A stretch of 63,735 nucleotides of DNA from positions 1 to 63,735 of IMG/VR virus record IMGVR_UViG_3300022592_000004; one strand, written 5' to 3'. This DNA comes from a virus. Positions 6,674 to 18,461 of the stretch are shown piece after piece. The notes under the pieces are model-generated. The model searched no databases. It was not told the DNA's origin and was given only the letters and a program-made list of their open reading frames with translations. The translations under genes were made by a program, and so were the position numbers. Each line of letters begins with the position of its first letter. Position 1 is the first letter of the stretch.

Positions 6674-6861
6674 TGAAGAGGGTTTGGAAGAAAGTCGCCG
6701 TCTCGCCGGAGGTCGCCAAGATCTGGGTGTGCAGATTCTGTGGGTTCGAATGCTATCAGAGTTGCGGTTGGTGGCGCGAGGCGAGACGCAGCAGGCAGGA
6801 TATTGATCTGATCTATCGATTCTGGGCAGGGCGTCCTGCTCCCAAGGGGGTATCTGACTGA
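6673..6861 (+). CDS. Small zinc-binding protein, 62 aa
   Basis: CRFC near residue 20 and Cys27/Cys31 (CYQSC) form a plausible four-Cys zinc site. Basic elsewhere. ATG 6673 and its stop both overlap neighbours, placing it in an operon with the ASCH protein that follows. Confidence 0.55.
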   Translation: MKRVWKKVAVSPEVAKIWVCRFCGFECYQSCGWWREARRSRQDIDLIYRFWAGRPAPKGVSD

Positions 6862-7409
6862 TGAAATATCATCCGATTATTTTCATCGGTCCGATGGTCC
6901 GCGCGATCCAAGAGGGACGGAAGACGCAGACACGGCGGATCGTGAAGCCGCAACCGGGCGCCGGAGTGCGCATAAGCGTGTTCGCCCCATCTGGTCTGGA
7001 AGATGGCCACGGCAGGAAAATAAAGCTAAAATATTGCGTCGGAGATCGCCTCTGGATTCGTGAGTGCTTCGCCCGCCGCATGGGTGGTTTCTACTACCGG
7101 GCCGACGCGAACCTCGCTGGGATTACATGGAAGCCTTCCATCCACATGCCGCGTTGCGCCTCGCGTATCACCCTGGAGGTCACGGCCATCAGACTGCAGC
7201 GGGTGCAGGAGATCAGCGAGGAGGATGCGATCGCAGAAGGCGTACAGCACGGAAACGTAGCGGGTCAGGATGTCGATATCGACGGCGATGTTTGGAACGG
7301 AGCCTATCGCAAGGCTTTCTCAATTCTATGGGACCAGATCAACGGTGCTCGCGCTTCATGGTCAGATAATCCATGGGTTTGGGCAATCACTTTCAGGAGG
7401 CTTGAATGA
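6861..7409 (+). CDS. ASCH-domain protein, 182 aa
   Basis: The N-terminus (PIIFIGPMVRAIQEGRKTQTRR) and the later GDRLWIRECF and ITLEVTAIRLQRVQEIS segments match the phage subgroup of the ASCH (PUA-like) superfamily, with the characteristic KT-x-TRR start. These domains are thought to bind RNA or modified nucleic acid; they are widespread in phages without a settled role. The product covers the whole domain at typical length. Stop overlaps the next ATG. Confidence 0.8.
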   Translation: MKYHPIIFIGPMVRAIQEGRKTQTRRIVKPQPGAGVRISVFAPSGLEDGHGRKIKLKYCVGDRLWIRECFARRMGGFYYRADANLAGITWKPSIHMPRCASRITLEVTAIRLQRVQEISEEDAIAEGVQHGNVAGQDVDIDGDVWNGAYRKAFSILWDQINGARASWSDNPWVWAITFRRLE

Positions 7410-7528
7410 AGCCGATATACGGGAAAAAGCATTGGAGAGACAGACTCACCGAGACGCAGCCCAAGTCCTGGACCAAAGAATTCGAGAAAATGATGAAACG
7501 CCTCCGCGAATGGATGGAGACCAGGTGA
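7406..7528 (+). CDS. Tiny basic protein, 40 aa
   Basis: ATG 7406 overlaps the ASCH stop and follows AGGAGG. Forty residues, strongly basic with several Trp, ending immediately before the GTG of the interrupted methyltransferase start at 7529. Predicted to be one or two amphipathic helices. Probably real because of the exact spacing and the good ribosome binding site. Confidence 0.5.
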   Translation: MKPIYGKKHWRDRLTETQPKSWTKEFEKMMKRLREWMETR

Positions 7529-7552
7529 GTGCTGATCCAGTGTGATGCCCGA
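7529..7552 (+). pseudogene. Orphaned 5' end of the DNA methyltransferase gene
   Basis: Eight codons (GTG start) encode MLIQCDAR. The intact methyltransferase start at 8071 encodes MLIQSDAR with mostly different codons. The homing endonuclease gene begins four bases beyond this fragment on the opposite strand. I read 7529-7552 as the original gene start cut off by the insertion; the frame continues only as noise through the insert. Confidence 0.7.
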
Positions 7553-7556
7553 TGGC

Positions 7557-8024
7557 TTATTTCTTCCTTGGTTTTTTGTTCAGCTGGAGGGATCGAAATT
7601 CTGCGAATAAAACATCTGCCTTTATTCCAAACTCCACGGGCAACGGGAGGAAATGGGGCGCTCCGTGATGCTTCCGAGAGGGGCTGTATGATCGACGGAG
7701 CGCATCCAACTCTAGGCAGATTTCTACCTGGCGCTGCTTTCCCTGTACATAAGGAAGGGCAAGCCTTAGAAGATTCAGTGCCTCTTGCTGGCATAACCTC
7801 AAACGATAATAAGCCGAGCGGCGGCCATGCGATCGCGTATAGAGCCGTTTGGCTCTCGGAAGTAGAGAATTTACAAAATCGATCGTCTTTTTGTCCACCA
7901 TCGTCAATTCGTAGCGGATTACATAGGCTGGAGTCCTTCTCCGGGGGCCTGTATCGCGCTGAATGCCAACATGGCTCTCTGCATCAATCATTGCGGCAAG
8001 ATATCCAAGATGCCATTGTTTCAT
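7557..8024 (-). CDS. LAGLIDADG homing endonuclease
   Basis: The only minus-strand gene. 155 residues from ATG at 8024 (AAAGGA upstream on the minus strand). LGYLAAMIDAES at residues 6-17 is the LAGLIDADG helix with its acidic active-site residue. The later YYRLRLCQQEALNLL and the LPYVQGK-(K/R)xQxE pattern are typical of the single-motif LAGLIDADG fold, which works as a dimer and cuts a long pseudo-palindromic site. It is inserted between codon 8 of the methyltransferase gene and a recoded copy of those same codons, so it is a free-standing mobile element rather than an intron or intein passenger. Confidence 0.85.
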   Translation of the reverse strand: MKQWHLGYLAAMIDAESHVGIQRDTGPRRRTPAYVIRYELTMVDKKTIDFVNSLLPRAKRLYTRSHGRRSAYYRLRLCQQEALNLLRLALPYVQGKQRQVEICLELDALRRSYSPSRKHHGAPHFLPLPVEFGIKADVLFAEFRSLQLNKKPRKK

Positions 8025-8070
8025 CGGAGTATCCTTTGCGTTGTCACCGTGCACACACACAGGAATATAA

Positions 8071-9131
8071 ATGTTAATCCAATCGGATGCAAGGGATATC
8101 CCGCTCAGATCAGAATGCGTTCAGCTGGTTGTTACGTCACCTCCCTACTGGGCCTTGAGAGTTTATCCGCACAAAGATCAGATCGGTCTCGAGCGGACGC
8201 CGCAGGAGTATGTGGCCGAGCTCGTGAAAGTCTTCCGCGAAGTCCGACGCGTTCTCCGGCCGGACGGAGTGCTTTTCATGTGCCTCGGCGACACCTACGC
8301 CACCGGCGCCGGCAAGGTGGGCGGCAGGCCGGGTGGCGGCCCTCGCGGGGAGAAGTGGCGCGGAGCGGGCCCTTACGATCAGGATCGCAAGAAGCGCTGT
8401 CCGCGGGGCCCCATGACCTCGCCGAATCGGATGCCGTTGCCCGGGCTGAAGCCGAAAGACCTAATAGGCATCCCCTGGCGCGCAGCATTGGCGCTTCAGG
8501 AAGACGGATGGTGGTTGCGTAGCGATATAATCTGGGAGAAGCCGAACCCGATCCCGGAGAGCGCCAAGGACAGAGTCTGCAGATCGCACGACTACATCTT
8601 CATGCTGTCAAAGTCCCGCCACTATTATTGGAACCGGGACGCCGTCAGAGAACCCCTGAGCGACGGGCCTCTTGGCGGCCGGCAGATGGCGGAAATGAGC
8701 GGCAAAACCGCAGCGCCGCGGAGAAAGGATTATCACGATGGCCGACTCGACAGATTCAGCGCTGGCAACGTGCCCAAGAAGCCGCCACTCGTCGGAGCTC
8801 ACGGCAGTCTTGCGCAGGACGGACAGGGAATGCGCATGCCCGGGAAATGGACAGCGCCAGGCGGCAGAAACGTGCGATCCGTGTGGACGATCGCCACGGA
8901 GCAGTATGGCGGAATCACTTTGCCGTGTTCCCTCGTCGACTCGCGGAGCGCTGCATTCTCCTCGCGAGCCGTCCTGGTGACCTGGTATTCGATCCCTTCG
9001 TGGGCTCCGGCACTACCGTGATGGCGGCGCAGAACCTCGGGCGCCGCGGGTGTGGCAGCGATTTAGCCTACCACGATCTGAGTCGCGAGAGGATCAACGG
9101 ACCTTTGTTTGCGGCGACGGTGAACCAATGA
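8071..9131 (+). CDS. Beta-class DNA methyltransferase, frameshifted
   Basis: Site-specific DNA methyltransferase using S-adenosylmethionine. TSPPYWAL near residue 28 is motif IV (S-P-P-Y is common in N4-cytosine enzymes); DPFVGSGTT near the C-terminus is the AdoMet-binding motif I, giving the beta-class order IV then I. The two halves are in different frames: the first runs to about 8912 (IATEQYGG), and the sense continues in the frame HFAVFPRRLAERC from 8914 to TGA 9131, as if one base were missing. Start ATG 8071 has its own AGGA. The frameshift may be real inactivation or a sequence error; no obvious slippery site. The 5' end is rebuilt after the endonuclease insertion. Confidence 0.8.
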
Positions 9132-9514
9132 AGAAGATCTTTGACATGGGACGAAACATGACCATCGACCAGATAAATGTGAAAATAGACGACATCGCCG
9201 AGCGGGCCAATAAGAAGGTCGACGACCTTATCCAGAGGACGTTCGAAACGGCCTACAAAGATCTTGACCGCGTCACGGGCATGAACATGGGAGCTGAAGG
9301 CAGTTTTGGCTTCAGCCCCTTCAGGGACCCATCCATTATTATCTGGGAACGCTTGGAGGATGCACAGCATGAGGCCGTGAGAAAGGCCGCGGGCGGGGCG
9401 CCCGGCCCCCCAGGCATCATTGACCTGGGCCGCGGGGACTATCGGGATGCGACGGGAGATGTCGAGCGAGAAGATCGGATGCTAGGGGACGGCCCACCAA
9501 AGGAAAAGGAGTAG
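9128..9514 (+). CDS. Hypothetical protein, 128 aa
   Basis: ATG 9128 overlaps the methyltransferase stop (ATGA). Helical first half (residues 10-50), then a Pro/Gly-rich and acidic tail (GAPGPPG near 95). No family recognised. Last gene before a promoter, so probably the end of a transcription unit. Confidence 0.55.
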   Translation: MKKIFDMGRNMTIDQINVKIDDIAERANKKVDDLIQRTFETAYKDLDRVTGMNMGAEGSFGFSPFRDPSIIIWERLEDAQHEAVRKAAGGAPGPPGIIDLGRGDYRDATGDVEREDRMLGDGPPKEKE

Positions 9515-9539
9515 AGAAATATCTCGTCGAAAGAATAAT

Positions 9540-9568
9540 TTGCTATACACCGGGCATGTCTCTATGAT
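9540..9568 (+). promoter_or_regulatory. Sigma70-type promoter
   Basis: TTGCTA (-35), 17-bp spacer, TATGAT (-10, five of six matches), in an 80-bp AT-rich intergenic gap, unlike its GC-rich surroundings. The expected transcript start is near 9575, about 20 bases before the ATG at 9596, which has GAGAGGAA upstream. Confidence 0.65.
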
Positions 9569-9595
9569 ATTACTCTACACGAGAGGAACCAACCC

Positions 9596-9814
9596 ATGGC
9601 AATCAACGGGCAGGAAGTTACTGAGACCGCCGAGCAAGAGCCGCCGGCGAAGACCGAAAAACAAGTCGACGACCTGATGCGCGGGCTGGTTGGAAAGCTG
9701 GTCACGGGTGCATCGTTCAGCTTGGAAGACGGCTTCCTCATCGAAATCGACGACATGATTCGATTTCGTTCCTGCTGCGAGCACACGCTGGTAATGCACA
9801 GGAAGGTTCAATGA
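9596..9814 (+). CDS. Hypothetical protein, 72 aa
   Basis: First gene after the promoter at 9540; ATG 9596. Polar, Glu-rich N-terminus and a small hydrophobic alpha/beta core. Shares the K-x-VDDL-x-R phrase with the gene at 9128 (KKVDDLIQR and KQVDDLMRG), which hints at a distant relation. Overlaps the next gene by four bases. Confidence 0.55.
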   Translation: MAINGQEVTETAEQEPPAKTEKQVDDLMRGLVGKLVTGASFSLEDGFLIEIDDMIRFRSCCEHTLVMHRKVQ

Positions 9815-11885: not shown

Positions 11886-12923
11886 ATGGGTGGAAGTAGC
11901 TATTCAAAACACGATTACGACAGCCGAAGCAGCATGCGGTCGAGCCATGCCGCGATTCACCACATGTCCATCGATGACGCGACATTTGCCCACAGCCGCG
12001 ACATCAAGGACGGGACGATCGCCGCGAAAGTCCACGCAAGTCTGGATCCGAAGGGCGTGAAGATCCGCGAGGCTCGGGACTCAGACAAGCATCCGGTCAG
12101 CGTTCCGGTTGCGATCCTTTGTGACACGACCGGATCGATGGGCGGCGTTCCGAAGATCATCCAGAAGGAACTCTCCCACCTGATGGGCTGCTTCCTGGAT
12201 GACAAGGCGTCCGGCAAGAAATATCTCGGCGAGGGATATCCGGCGATTCTCATCGGCGCCGTCGACGACTACGACGCCATGGCTCACTTTGGCCATAATG
12301 GAACGTTGCAGGTCGGGCAGTTCGAGTCCGGAATCGAGATCGATGACAATCTCACCAACCTCTGGATCACCGCCATGGGCGGAGGAACCTACGACGAGGA
12401 CTATGAGCTCGGCCTCTATTTCATGGCCCGGCACACGGCTCACGATCACTTCGAAAAGCGCGGCCGCAAGGGATACATCTTCATGATCGGCGACGAACAC
12501 GCCTATCGGAGGCTTCGCAAGGCCGTGGTGGCGGACATCATCGGCGACACCCTTCAGGAAGACATGACCCTCGAGGAGATCCTGAAGGAAGCCCAGGAGC
12601 GCTACCATGTGTTCATGATCATTCCGAACATGACCAGCTACTACAACGATCCGGAACTGGAAAAGTGGTGGGTCGGTCATCTCGGACAGCAAAACGTGAT
12701 CAAACTCGCGGATCCGGAGAAGATCTGCCAGTGTATCGTTTCGGCCGTGGCGATCTGCGAGGAATACGTCGGTCTCGACGAACTCGTCGCGGACGGCGTG
12801 GCTGACAAGAACGTCTCGGGTGCACTGGTGCACCTGGCCAAGGCGGCCGGAGACATCAGCAGGTATTCCGCGGACGGTCTGCCGGCGGTCGCGGGCGCTC
12901 CGGGAGGAGTCGATCGCCTATGA
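11886..12923 (+). CDS. Von Willebrand factor A domain protein, 345 aa
   Basis: ATG 11886 follows AAAGGAAA; the open frame above it lies inside the kinase gene. ILCDTTGSM with Asp80 is a MIDAS motif (D-x-T-G-S) that binds a divalent metal. Later elements include a conserved Thr/Gly loop (AMGGGTYDEDYE) and the strand GYIFMIGDE. Gene order J-domain/kinase-like then vWA resembles the kinase-vWA pairs of bacterial stress systems, in which vWA proteins act as scaffolds. Substrate and role in the phage are unknown. Unlike the vWA protein at 22589 it has no TROVE domain. Confidence 0.8.
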   Translation: MGGSSYSKHDYDSRSSMRSSHAAIHHMSIDDATFAHSRDIKDGTIAAKVHASLDPKGVKIREARDSDKHPVSVPVAILCDTTGSMGGVPKIIQKELSHLMGCFLDDKASGKKYLGEGYPAILIGAVDDYDAMAHFGHNGTLQVGQFESGIEIDDNLTNLWITAMGGGTYDEDYELGLYFMARHTAHDHFEKRGRKGYIFMIGDEHAYRRLRKAVVADIIGDTLQEDMTLEEILKEAQERYHVFMIIPNMTSYYNDPELEKWWVGHLGQQNVIKLADPEKICQCIVSAVAICEEYVGLDELVADGVADKNVSGALVHLAKAAGDISRYSADGLPAVAGAPGGVDRL

Positions 12924-13265: not shown

Positions 13266-14597
13266 ATGAGAGCGTTTCTGGTTGCTGGTCTGGCCTTTGG
13301 GGACGAGGGCAAGGGATCGATGGTGGATTTCCTCGTCCGCCATTACGGCGCCAAGCTTGTCGTGCGCTATAATGGTGGACCGCAGGCGGCTCATAACGTG
13401 GTGACCCCTGACGGCCAGCACCACACCTTTTCGCAATTCGGGTCCGGCAGCTTTGTTCCCGAGTGCCGGACCCTTCTCTACAAAACAATGCTCGTGGATC
13501 CCTATGCGATGCTCAACGAGGCGGAAGTCTGGGCCAAGAACCATCCTGAACTTCCCGGCCTACTCGGGCGGATCACGGTCGATCCGGGCTGTGTTGTGAT
13601 CACGCCCTGGCATGCGATGGCGAACAGAATTAAGGAAGAAGCGCTTGGAACCGCAAGGCACGGGTCCTGCGGGCTGGGGATAGGCGAATCTCGATCCGAT
13701 CAGGAAAACGGACTGTGGTTTCAGGTTTCCGACATTTTCTCCGATGCCGGCACATCGACGAGACTGCTCGCGGCGATAAAGGGGAAAAAGATTGAGGAGA
13801 TGCGCGAGCTCTCGAATGAGACCGATTATGGGCGCAAGATGCTTCGGCGGATGAAGGATGTCGATCCCCACGAATTGCTGTTCTTCTATCGTGAGAAATG
13901 GGCCCCAAGGATACAACTCGCAAACGTGATGGATTTTCTGCGAGGGTCTTGGCATGAGACCGTTGTGTTCGAGGGGTCGCAGGGAGTTCTCATAGATCAG
14001 GATCTTGGGTTTTTCCCCTACGTGACCTGGACGGACTGCACATTTGGAAACCTGCGCATTCTCCTTGCCTGCATCGCCAGATACGCTGAACTCGAGGTTG
14101 TTAAGATCGGCGTCACCCGGGCCTATTTCGTGCGCCATGGTCCTGGCCCGTTCATAACCGAGACGAGCAGCCACGGGTATCCCGAGAGGTATAATGCGAA
14201 CGGCCCGTGGCAGGGCCCCGTGCGGAAGGGGGATATTGATTTCGTCGCCCTGCGGTATGCGCTCAAGGCGATTGGCGGCGTGGATCGGCTTGCCCTGACG
14301 CACATGGATTCGATCAACAAATACGGGACCCAATATTGCGACGGGTATCGAGCGGAGCATATGGGTTCTCTGATCAAGGACATTGCCGGCGTTCAGCTGA
14401 CCATGCTCGATCAGTTCCAGCCTCACCTAAAATCCACCGTCAACATGGTCGAAACCGCCGAAGAGCAACTCGGAGTTCGAGTGGGCTACACATCATGGGG
14501 GCCAACCGCAAATGACAAATTGGTTGCGAAATCTGTTGAAGAAGAAATACTCTCCGTACCAGTGGGCACGAACTCACATGAGAAAAGTCGAGTGTGA
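13266..14597 (+). CDS. Adenylosuccinate synthetase homologue (PurA/PurZ superfamily)
   Basis: 443 residues; ATG 13266 after GAGGAAAAG. GLAFGDEGKGS at residues 8-18 is the P-loop with the catalytic Asp13. RYNGGPQAAH places the second catalytic residue at His43, though PurA normally has GGHNAGH. FEGSQGVLIDQDLGFFPYVT and GPGPFITE match later PurA signatures. PurA joins IMP and aspartate using GTP; phage PurZ makes the 2-aminoadenine precursor from dGMP and typically lacks this Asp, to my recollection. Keeping Asp13 favours PurA-like chemistry. The unusual GGPQAAH and ARHGSCGLGIGE segments mark a divergent clade whose purine substrate is open. No partner genes of the 2-aminoadenine pathway occur here. 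Confidence 0.85.
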   Translation: MRAFLVAGLAFGDEGKGSMVDFLVRHYGAKLVVRYNGGPQAAHNVVTPDGQHHTFSQFGSGSFVPECRTLLYKTMLVDPYAMLNEAEVWAKNHPELPGLLGRITVDPGCVVITPWHAMANRIKEEALGTARHGSCGLGIGESRSDQENGLWFQVSDIFSDAGTSTRLLAAIKGKKIEEMRELSNETDYGRKMLRRMKDVDPHELLFFYREKWAPRIQLANVMDFLRGSWHETVVFEGSQGVLIDQDLGFFPYVTWTDCTFGNLRILLACIARYAELEVVKIGVTRAYFVRHGPGPFITETSSHGYPERYNANGPWQGPVRKGDIDFVALRYALKAIGGVDRLALTHMDSINKYGTQYCDGYRAEHMGSLIKDIAGVQLTMLDQFQPHLKSTVNMVETAEEQLGVRVGYTSWGPTANDKLVAKSVEEEILSVPVGTNSHEKSRV

Positions 14598-17715: not shown

Positions 17716-18029
17716 GCGACACCGTACCTCCACTGTCAGATGCAACACCTCCGTTCCCCCAATGCCCGGATTGCGGCCTGGAGTTTCAACCAGGGCATCT
17801 GTGTAAGGAAAGCATGATCGAGGAGATCTCGAGGATGCGTGCCGCCTTCCAGATCTCCGTGGGTACACTCGCCCGGGTCAGAAACGCAACCATGATGTGG
17901 CGCCGCGGGCAGGAAACTGAAAAGCTGCGCGAGGTGTCGTTGATGGTGAAAAAGGCGCTCGCCGATATCGAGGAACTGATCTGCAAGGAACAGAAAGGCA
18001 AGATACTCCCGGATGATCTTAGTCTTTAA
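17712..18029 (+). CDS. Zinc-knuckle plus coiled-coil protein, 105 aa
   Basis: CPDC near residue 18 and H29/C31 form a small C-C-H-C site, followed by a long amphipathic helix (35-95). ATG 17712 overlaps the previous stop. No family recognised. Confidence 0.55.
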   Translation: MSDTVPPLSDATPPFPQCPDCGLEFQPGHLCKESMIEEISRMRAAFQISVGTLARVRNATMMWRRGQETEKLREVSLMVKKALADIEELICKEQKGKILPDDLSL

Positions 18030-18062
18030 GTTTGTGGTTGTTGGTCAGATAAAGGAGAAGTG

Positions 18063-18461
18063 ATGGCAAAGACAGTTCCAAGTTTCGGCACAATCCACGC
18101 GGCTACCAGGATCGGATACAAATGGGCCCCCGATTTGCGGCTCTTTGTTCGCGTCACCCAGGTTGGCGCGTTTTATAAAGTTGAGATCCAGCCTCCAACC
18201 TTCGATGCCCGGATAGGGGTCCAGGTTGTGACAGTCGGCGATGCGGTCACGCATGCCAGTAGAGTCTCTCTTTGGCACGGCCAGGAGGGGATTCTCGGGT
18301 ACATGCCGGTGCTCAATAAATACATGGGGAAATCGACGCCGCACACCTTCTATATGGACGACGACGGTTTGGAACTCCCGCCGGAGATAGGCGGAGCTGC
18401 CGACCGGAAAACGGCTCCGATCGCCGACCTCAAGATCGCGGAGCCTCCCAAGGAGAACTGA
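18063..18461 (+). CDS. Hypothetical protein, 132 aa
   Basis: ATG 18063 after GGAGAAG; a GTG at 18060 is an alternative. Predicted beta-rich with several aromatic residues. No recognised domain. The adjacent gene starts one base after its stop. Confidence 0.5.
   Translation: MAKTVPSFGTIHAATRIGYKWAPDLRLFVRVTQVGAFYKVEIQPPTFDARIGVQVVTVGDAVTHASRVSLWHGQEGILGYMPVLNKYMGKSTPHTFYMDDDGLELPPEIGGAADRKTAPIADLKIAEPPKEN

Follow-up and report, generated by a model that had tools for sequence, protein, structure and literature searches.

The methyltransferase locus

The window analysed here is the IMG/VR virus record IMGVR_UViG_3300022592_000004 over its whole length of 63,735 bp. An operon that includes an ASCH-like gene leads into an N6/N4 methyltransferase (MTase) gene with two candidate starts, and a homing endonuclease gene (HEG) lies on the opposite strand between them (Table 1). 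The stop of the upstream ORF and the first MTase start adjoin directly (TGA|GTG, 7526–7531). The remnant that follows is short, with only 8 codons, and its end at 7552 is separated by 4 bases from the complement of the HEG stop codon. The second start opens with ATG TTA ATC CAA TCG GAT GCA AGG at 8071 and continues with DIPLRSECVQLVVTSPPYW. In the MTase read from this start, the motifs MLIQSDARDIPL and TSPPYW are intact.

Table 1. Coordinates of features at the MTase locus of the window.
Feature	Position	Strand	Evidence or remark
phrog_874 (ASCH-like) gene, upstream in operon	6861..7409	+	PHROG E 2e-59
40-aa ORF	7406..7528	+	ATGA overlap with phrog_874 gene; TGA abuts putative native MTase start; sequence
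Putative native MTase start, 8-codon remnant VLIQCDAR	7529..7552	+	GTG CTG ATC CAG TGT GAT GCC CGA
Putative relay ORF (native MTase frame)	7529..8077	+	Open through HEG antisense; 0 stops vs 5.4 expected
Predicted I-CreI/I-MsoI-type LAGLIDADG HEG	7557..8024	-	155 aa from ATG 8022–8024; phrog_5046 E 1.6e-7 (about 2e-7)
Alternative HEG start	GTG 8058–8060	-	167 aa
AGGA, putative ribosome binding site of restored MTase	8061..8064	+	Sequence
Putatively restored N6/N4 MTase, diverged 5' end	8071..9021	+	Pfam N6_N4_Mtase E 9e-27
C-terminal part of MTase (HFAVFP...DPFVGSGTT), other frame	8905..9131	+	ORF 8628–9131: Pfam N6_N4_Mtase E 1e-18

The two stretches GTGCTGATCCAGTGTGATGCCCGA (VLIQCDAR) and ATGTTAATCCAATCGGATGCAAGG (MLIQSDAR) are identical at 15 of 24 nt, and with both first codons taken as starts 7 of 8 residues agree. 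The original prediction had located them at 7529–7552 and 8071–8094 and described one peptide with a Cys/Ser exchange, which we confirm. Its wording that almost all synonymous positions were changed is slightly strong because two of the six codons for shared residues are identical (ATC and GAT), while the other four differ as described. Over the whole window and both strands, 0.075 matches of at least 6/7 to LIQSDAR are expected by chance. The sole such match beyond the MTase itself begins at 7532, immediately before the HEG, in the reading frame of the GTG that abuts the stop of the previous gene. In a relative (L101), the ASCH gene is followed after ~110 bp by an uninterrupted MTase. The sequence thus supports an arrangement in which the native MTase start is broken up by an antisense LAGLIDADG gene, and the MTase would be rebuilt from a second start that has its own ribosome binding site.

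The window MTase may not regain function because its frame is broken by one base near 8905, where relatives read through in one frame. The apparent one-base loss lies within 8890–8930 at a conserved YxGAHFATFP motif (TATGGCGGAATCACTTTGCC) and is either a true mutation or an assembly error. Elsewhere in the window, a protein encoded at 13266–14597 matches phrog_1211, an adenylosuccinate-synthetase-like family whose name refers to 2-amino-adenine synthesis; this hints that the phage might carry modified (Z) DNA.

The endonuclease

The start of the HEG is more likely the ATG, which has AAAGGA upstream, than the GTG (Table 1). The 155-aa protein contains one LAGLIDADG motif, is without intein-like or zinc-finger domains and scores 17 against Pfam LAGLIDADG_3, under the curated cut-off of 22.5. 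When an alignment of the HEG and its relatives was compared as a profile with PDB sequences, I-MsoI was matched with E 1e-17, and I-CreI was matched as well. The same two enzymes are the best fold matches of an AlphaFold model of the window HEG (pLDDT 84; Foldseek against I-CreI: E 8e-7, TM 0.7). Based on these profile and fold matches, the window HEG product is a single-motif, I-CreI-type LAGLIDADG protein, in agreement with the LAGLIDADG gene originally proposed on the opposite strand between the two MTase starts. In its motif LAAMIDAES, the acidic catalytic position is kept as an E that aligns with D/E of the relatives, and two glycines are lost. The HEG also sits on a long tree branch (2.94). 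The enzyme thus appears very diverged, and its activity is uncertain: it may be inactive.

The HEG is stand-alone, with its own start and stop, beside a single target gene. A comparison of 6800–9600 with Rfam returned no match and no intron family. The HEG is not housed in a group I intron or an intein, since it is antisense to the host gene and there is no Rfam match. A scan of the MTase copy for a HEG promoter gave nothing above shuffle level.

Recurrence of the arrangement

The same layout is found in four other IMG/VR contigs. For two of them the HEG was found by alignment query (L148, whose contig also carries the label L164, and L154, likewise L162), and the other two (L163, L167) were found via a DNA pattern. 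Their HEGs are divergent members of the window HEG family, and the common order is an operon-coupled native start, an antisense HEG and a diverged full-length 5' end that leads into the MTase body. The remnants comprise 12–26 codons and end at SPPY in L167, at SPP in L163 and earlier in L148 and L154. Remnant and copy are MILRGDARSIPLADGCVQTCVTSPPY and MIIRADARNIPLADSSVQTVVTSPPY in L167 (protein agreement 19/25) and MTILQGDAPAMLRTLPDECVHMVVTSPP and ILMGDAVQMLRTLPDESVHCVVTSPPY in L163 (21/26); L148/L164 and L154/L162 have similar pairs with shorter remnants. The remnant start meets or overlaps the stop of the upstream gene in all five loci, window included, which marks the remnants as native starts. 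The interruption and the restoration by a second start with its own ribosome binding site, as first read from the window, thus recur with the same anatomy and longer remnants in four unrelated contigs.

Two further records (L006, L150) have an MTase of this family that contains, at the HEYLFLLAK motif, an antisense HEG related to the window HEG at the family level. Here, complete MTase frames (L006 2984–4407; L150 2048–3829, minus) contain the HEG nested antisense and in frame, and the host protein would hold ~160 residues encoded by the reverse strand of the HEG. The seven MTase-associated HEGs cluster on the HEG tree (2 label changes vs 5.7 when shuffled; 1 of 500 shuffles as low), on which the placement of the window HEG is unsure. 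The lineages of L006, L150 and L167 are related, as are those of L162, L163 and L164. As a separate observation, L138 (Streptomyces phage Faust gp7/gp6) has another LAGLIDADG gene of this family immediately before a C5-cytosine-type methyltransferase gene and in the same direction.

A close relative with an empty site was not found in the collections searched. Close relatives by terminase are without MTase and HEG and the whole region is absent. An almost identical record, G002 (IMGVR_UViG_3300022653_000002), cannot show an empty site because it begins at window position 12628, and in G003, also closely related, the MTase/HEG interval is occupied by quite different genes. A plain protein scan of IMG/VR, phages and plasmids for HEG relatives gave none at E<=1e-3, and bacterial and archaeal genomes scanned with the L148/L154 HEG pair gave no match. 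Among 50 related records, phrog_5046 is present only in the window and in the record of L006. Two differences among these relatives concern other sites. Window 17771–18205 corresponds to ~433 bp missing from the otherwise identical G002, with the direct repeat ATGCCCGGAT at the bounds. In the terminase relatives L115 and L116, the tblastn match spans 2664 bp vs the usual ~1890, so their terminase genes may contain an inserted intron, intein or HEG.

Four extra bases at the SPPYW motif

In four SPPY-site relatives the restoration is not clean, because the restored gene holds 4 extra bases at the junction (SPPY-TGAC-W). The exact form is present in 9 MTases of an IMG/VR scan and in one Verrucomicrobia MAG. 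TGAC lies between the TAY (Tyr) and TGG (Trp) codons in ten contigs (L156, L157, L158, L160, L161, L162, L163, L164, L167 and L176), such that UGA-C directly follows SPPY in ten MTases; the frame beyond it remains open over the stretches read. A nuclease gene adjoins 5 of the 10 TGAC MTases. At the same place, a scan for gaps of 1–9 nt with a narrower codon context returned only TGAC (2), TGAAT (1; L169) and TGGTGACCA (2 contigs with the same sequence, L168 and L170). The window MTase is without the TGAC insertion. TGAC may be a HEG-resistance insertion or scar, a +1 frameshift site (UGA C) or something else. The HNH nuclease beside the TGAC MTase of L156 was considered as a further case and rejected, since re-reading gave no reliable remnant.

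Origin of the second 5' end

Among codons for the same residue, remnant and copy share 7/19 in L167, 8/21 in L163, 2/6 in the window, 3/7 in L154 and 7/9 in L148, i.e., 33–43% in four loci and 78% in L148, where the comparison is short. MTase 5' ends of different phages with 65–90% protein identity share 33–38% of codons (SD 13). The difference between remnant and copy is therefore consistent with ordinary ortholog divergence, the short L148 comparison excepted, and the 5' end brought by the element is probably foreign. No special recoding would be needed, because the codon divergence matches that of MTase 5' ends from unrelated phages. Hence, the originally proposed recoded copy of the insertion-site codons is not supported as stated. 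By analogy with the WHO elements of yeast, it is plausible that the carried copy is immune to the enzyme's own cut.

An open frame opposite the endonuclease gene

The plus-strand frame from GTG 7529 is open across the entire HEG antisense, and its stop (TAA, 8075–8077) overlaps the new ATG (ATGtTAA). When the window HEG is resampled synonymously with phage codon use, the MTase frame has a mean of 5.4 stops vs 0 observed (P ~3e-4). The host frame through the HEG antisense has 0–1 stops in 7/7 MTase loci and, if the HEG in another gene (L143) is counted, in 8/8 antisense-oriented HEGs (combined P 4e-9, a value that overstates independence because some HEGs are related). Per-locus P values are 7e-5 for L154/L162 (41% GC), 0.01 for L006, 0.05 for L167, 0.08 for L163, 0.13 for L164 and 0.48 for L150, whose open frame is accounted for by GC-rich codon use alone. 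In L143 (2390–2872, host strand), the antisense HEG lies between UDP-glucose-dehydrogenase-like and glycosyltransferase-like genes. The ORF opposite it begins at an ATGA shared with the stop of the upstream gene and extends 16 nt into the following gene (40% GC, P 0.004). Nine other HEGs of the family served as controls; nearly all of them point the same way as the adjacent genes, and each of their antisense frames contains two or more stops.

Relative to the new start, the ORF ends as ATGtTAA in the window, as ATGA in L167 and 5 nt before it in L162; in L163 and L164 it ends 114–142 nt short. This pattern suggests that the open MTase frame is a translated relay that preserves coupling to the operon. 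We infer that ribosomes cross the relay and re-initiate, which would keep the MTase coupled to the operon. In a more general form, phage antisense HEGs would be selected for an opposite strand on which the host frame is open and is translated as a relay. The relay would either end on the replaced start and preserve operon coupling (window, L167, L162 and the glycosyltransferase operon of L143), or the host protein would read through it as an internal segment of ~160 residues (L006, L150). We give this general form an even chance. If true, the relay would add a third mode, next to introns and inteins, in which a homing gene can reside inside a host gene, and the open antisense would be a testable rule for finding further elements and predicting harmless insertions.

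Proposed course of events and alternatives

We read the anatomy of the locus, its recurrence, the enzyme fold, the divergence level and the open frame as the traces of a homing event. An antisense, stand-alone I-CreI-type HEG would have homed into the 5' part of the MTase, replaced this part with its own version and left a fragment of the old start, with the relay keeping the coupling (probability about 0.7). The enzyme would cut sensitive alleles of the MTase within their conserved 5' coding region, and the element-bearing phage would serve as the repair template, with the operon genes and the old-start fragment as left arm and the MTase body as right arm. The recipient would keep its own start as a stub, gain the HEG on the opposite strand and receive a new, diverged 5' end with its own ribosome binding site, which would restore the MTase and presumably remove the cut site. 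The HEG antisense might have been kept stop-free in the native frame owing to translational coupling between the native start and the preceding gene. Ribosomes would then translate across the HEG antisense and stop at the new start codon.

The origin of the stub and the copy might be explained differently. Phage genomes are mosaics, and a complete foreign block of HEG and MTase could have been acquired by ordinary recombination at the old MTase start, not driven by the HEG, with the stub as a replacement scar. Copy and stub are indeed as unlike as orthologs of different phages, and the interval holds quite different genes in G003. However, the order of stub, antisense HEG and new start recurs in five contigs with divergent HEGs from different phages, and two further HEGs of the clade lie inside the same MTase family, so we consider mosaic exchange unlikely. 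Less probable still is a local duplication of the native start upon HEG insertion, followed by drift and by selection that recoded the functional copy to escape cleavage. It would fit the similar proteins of stub and copy (7/8 residues in the window, 19/25 in L167, 21/26 in L163) with their differing codons, but their codons agree as often as those of independent orthologs with equal protein identity (0.33–0.38, SD 0.13), and an unselected stub is not expected to retain its protein sequence while synonymous sites saturate. That the match at 7529 is due to chance, with an MTase that simply starts at 8071 and a stand-alone intergenic HEG, is very improbable: the stub is only 24 nt long, yet it lies at the exact operon-coupled start with 0.075 matches expected in the whole window, and homologous loci have stubs of 12–26 codons. 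A split gene of the T4 type is ruled out, as the copy has a complete N-terminus including SPPYW.

The open frame itself could be a by-product of GC-rich codon use or of an ancestral HEG nested in frame, without a maintained relay. This is a possible, if somewhat doubtful, explanation. Codon use explains L150 (P 0.48), L163, L164 and L167 are weak on their own (0.05–0.13), and the open frame is mostly the codon-aligned one. It leaves unexplained, however, the window (frame 2, 50% GC, P 3e-4), L162 (41% GC, P 7e-5) and L143 (40% GC, P 0.004), as well as the controls without an open antisense frame and the three relay ORFs that end on the new start.

Comparison with known systems

If the homing reading is correct, the replacement of gene ends by homing, which is known from fungi, also takes place in phages and at 5' ends, and a phage modification gene is a recurrent homing target. 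It would also explain how a stand-alone HEG can insert into coding sequence without killing the host gene. In a full-text search of the open-access literature, short of a complete survey, no gene-end-replacing homing gene was described from a phage. Restoration of the interrupted gene had seemed unfamiliar when the locus was originally read; it is in fact known at 3' ends, from WHO elements and mORFs, and what differs here is the 5' end and the phage host.

I-CreI and I-MsoI are encoded by introns in algal chloroplast rRNA genes. The window HEG shares their single-motif LAGLIDADG fold, whereas it is stand-alone and antisense in a phage gene. Among T4-like phages, stand-alone HEGs split genes, as in Aeh1 nrdA/mobE and T4 gene 60/mobA (PMC2988022). 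These likewise are stand-alone phage HEGs inside a conserved part of a host gene, but the gene is left as two pieces that reassemble, whereas in the window it would be made whole by the carried 5' end.

By mechanism, the closest known systems are mORFs and WHO elements. Fungal mitochondrial mORFs carry foreign C-termini (Allomyces atp6; Glomus atp6, atp9, cox2 and nad3; PMC3630166). As proposed for the window, a LAGLIDADG (or GIY-YIG) gene supplies a foreign gene end in place of the native one; mORFs are C-terminal, mitochondrial and within the host-gene transcript, whereas the window element is N-terminal, in a phage and antisense. WHO elements of Torulaspora and Lachancea replace the 3' end of FBA1 with a diverged version and make FBA1 resistant (PMC7282813). 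Both WHO and the window combine a LAGLIDADG homing gene beside one host gene, without intron or intein, with a full-length gene whose end is replaced and diverged on one side and a fragment of the old end on the other, and for both, homing through the leftover fragment is proposed. WHO elements, however, act at the 3' end and have intein-like and zinc-finger domains, whereas the window element is of the small I-CreI type at the 5' end of a phage MTase and, unlike WHO, lies antisense and leaves the host frame open across the HEG. By analogy, the window element might thus be regarded as a mirror image of WHO in mechanism, and not as a member of WHO, given its 5' position, its other protein architecture and its phage host.
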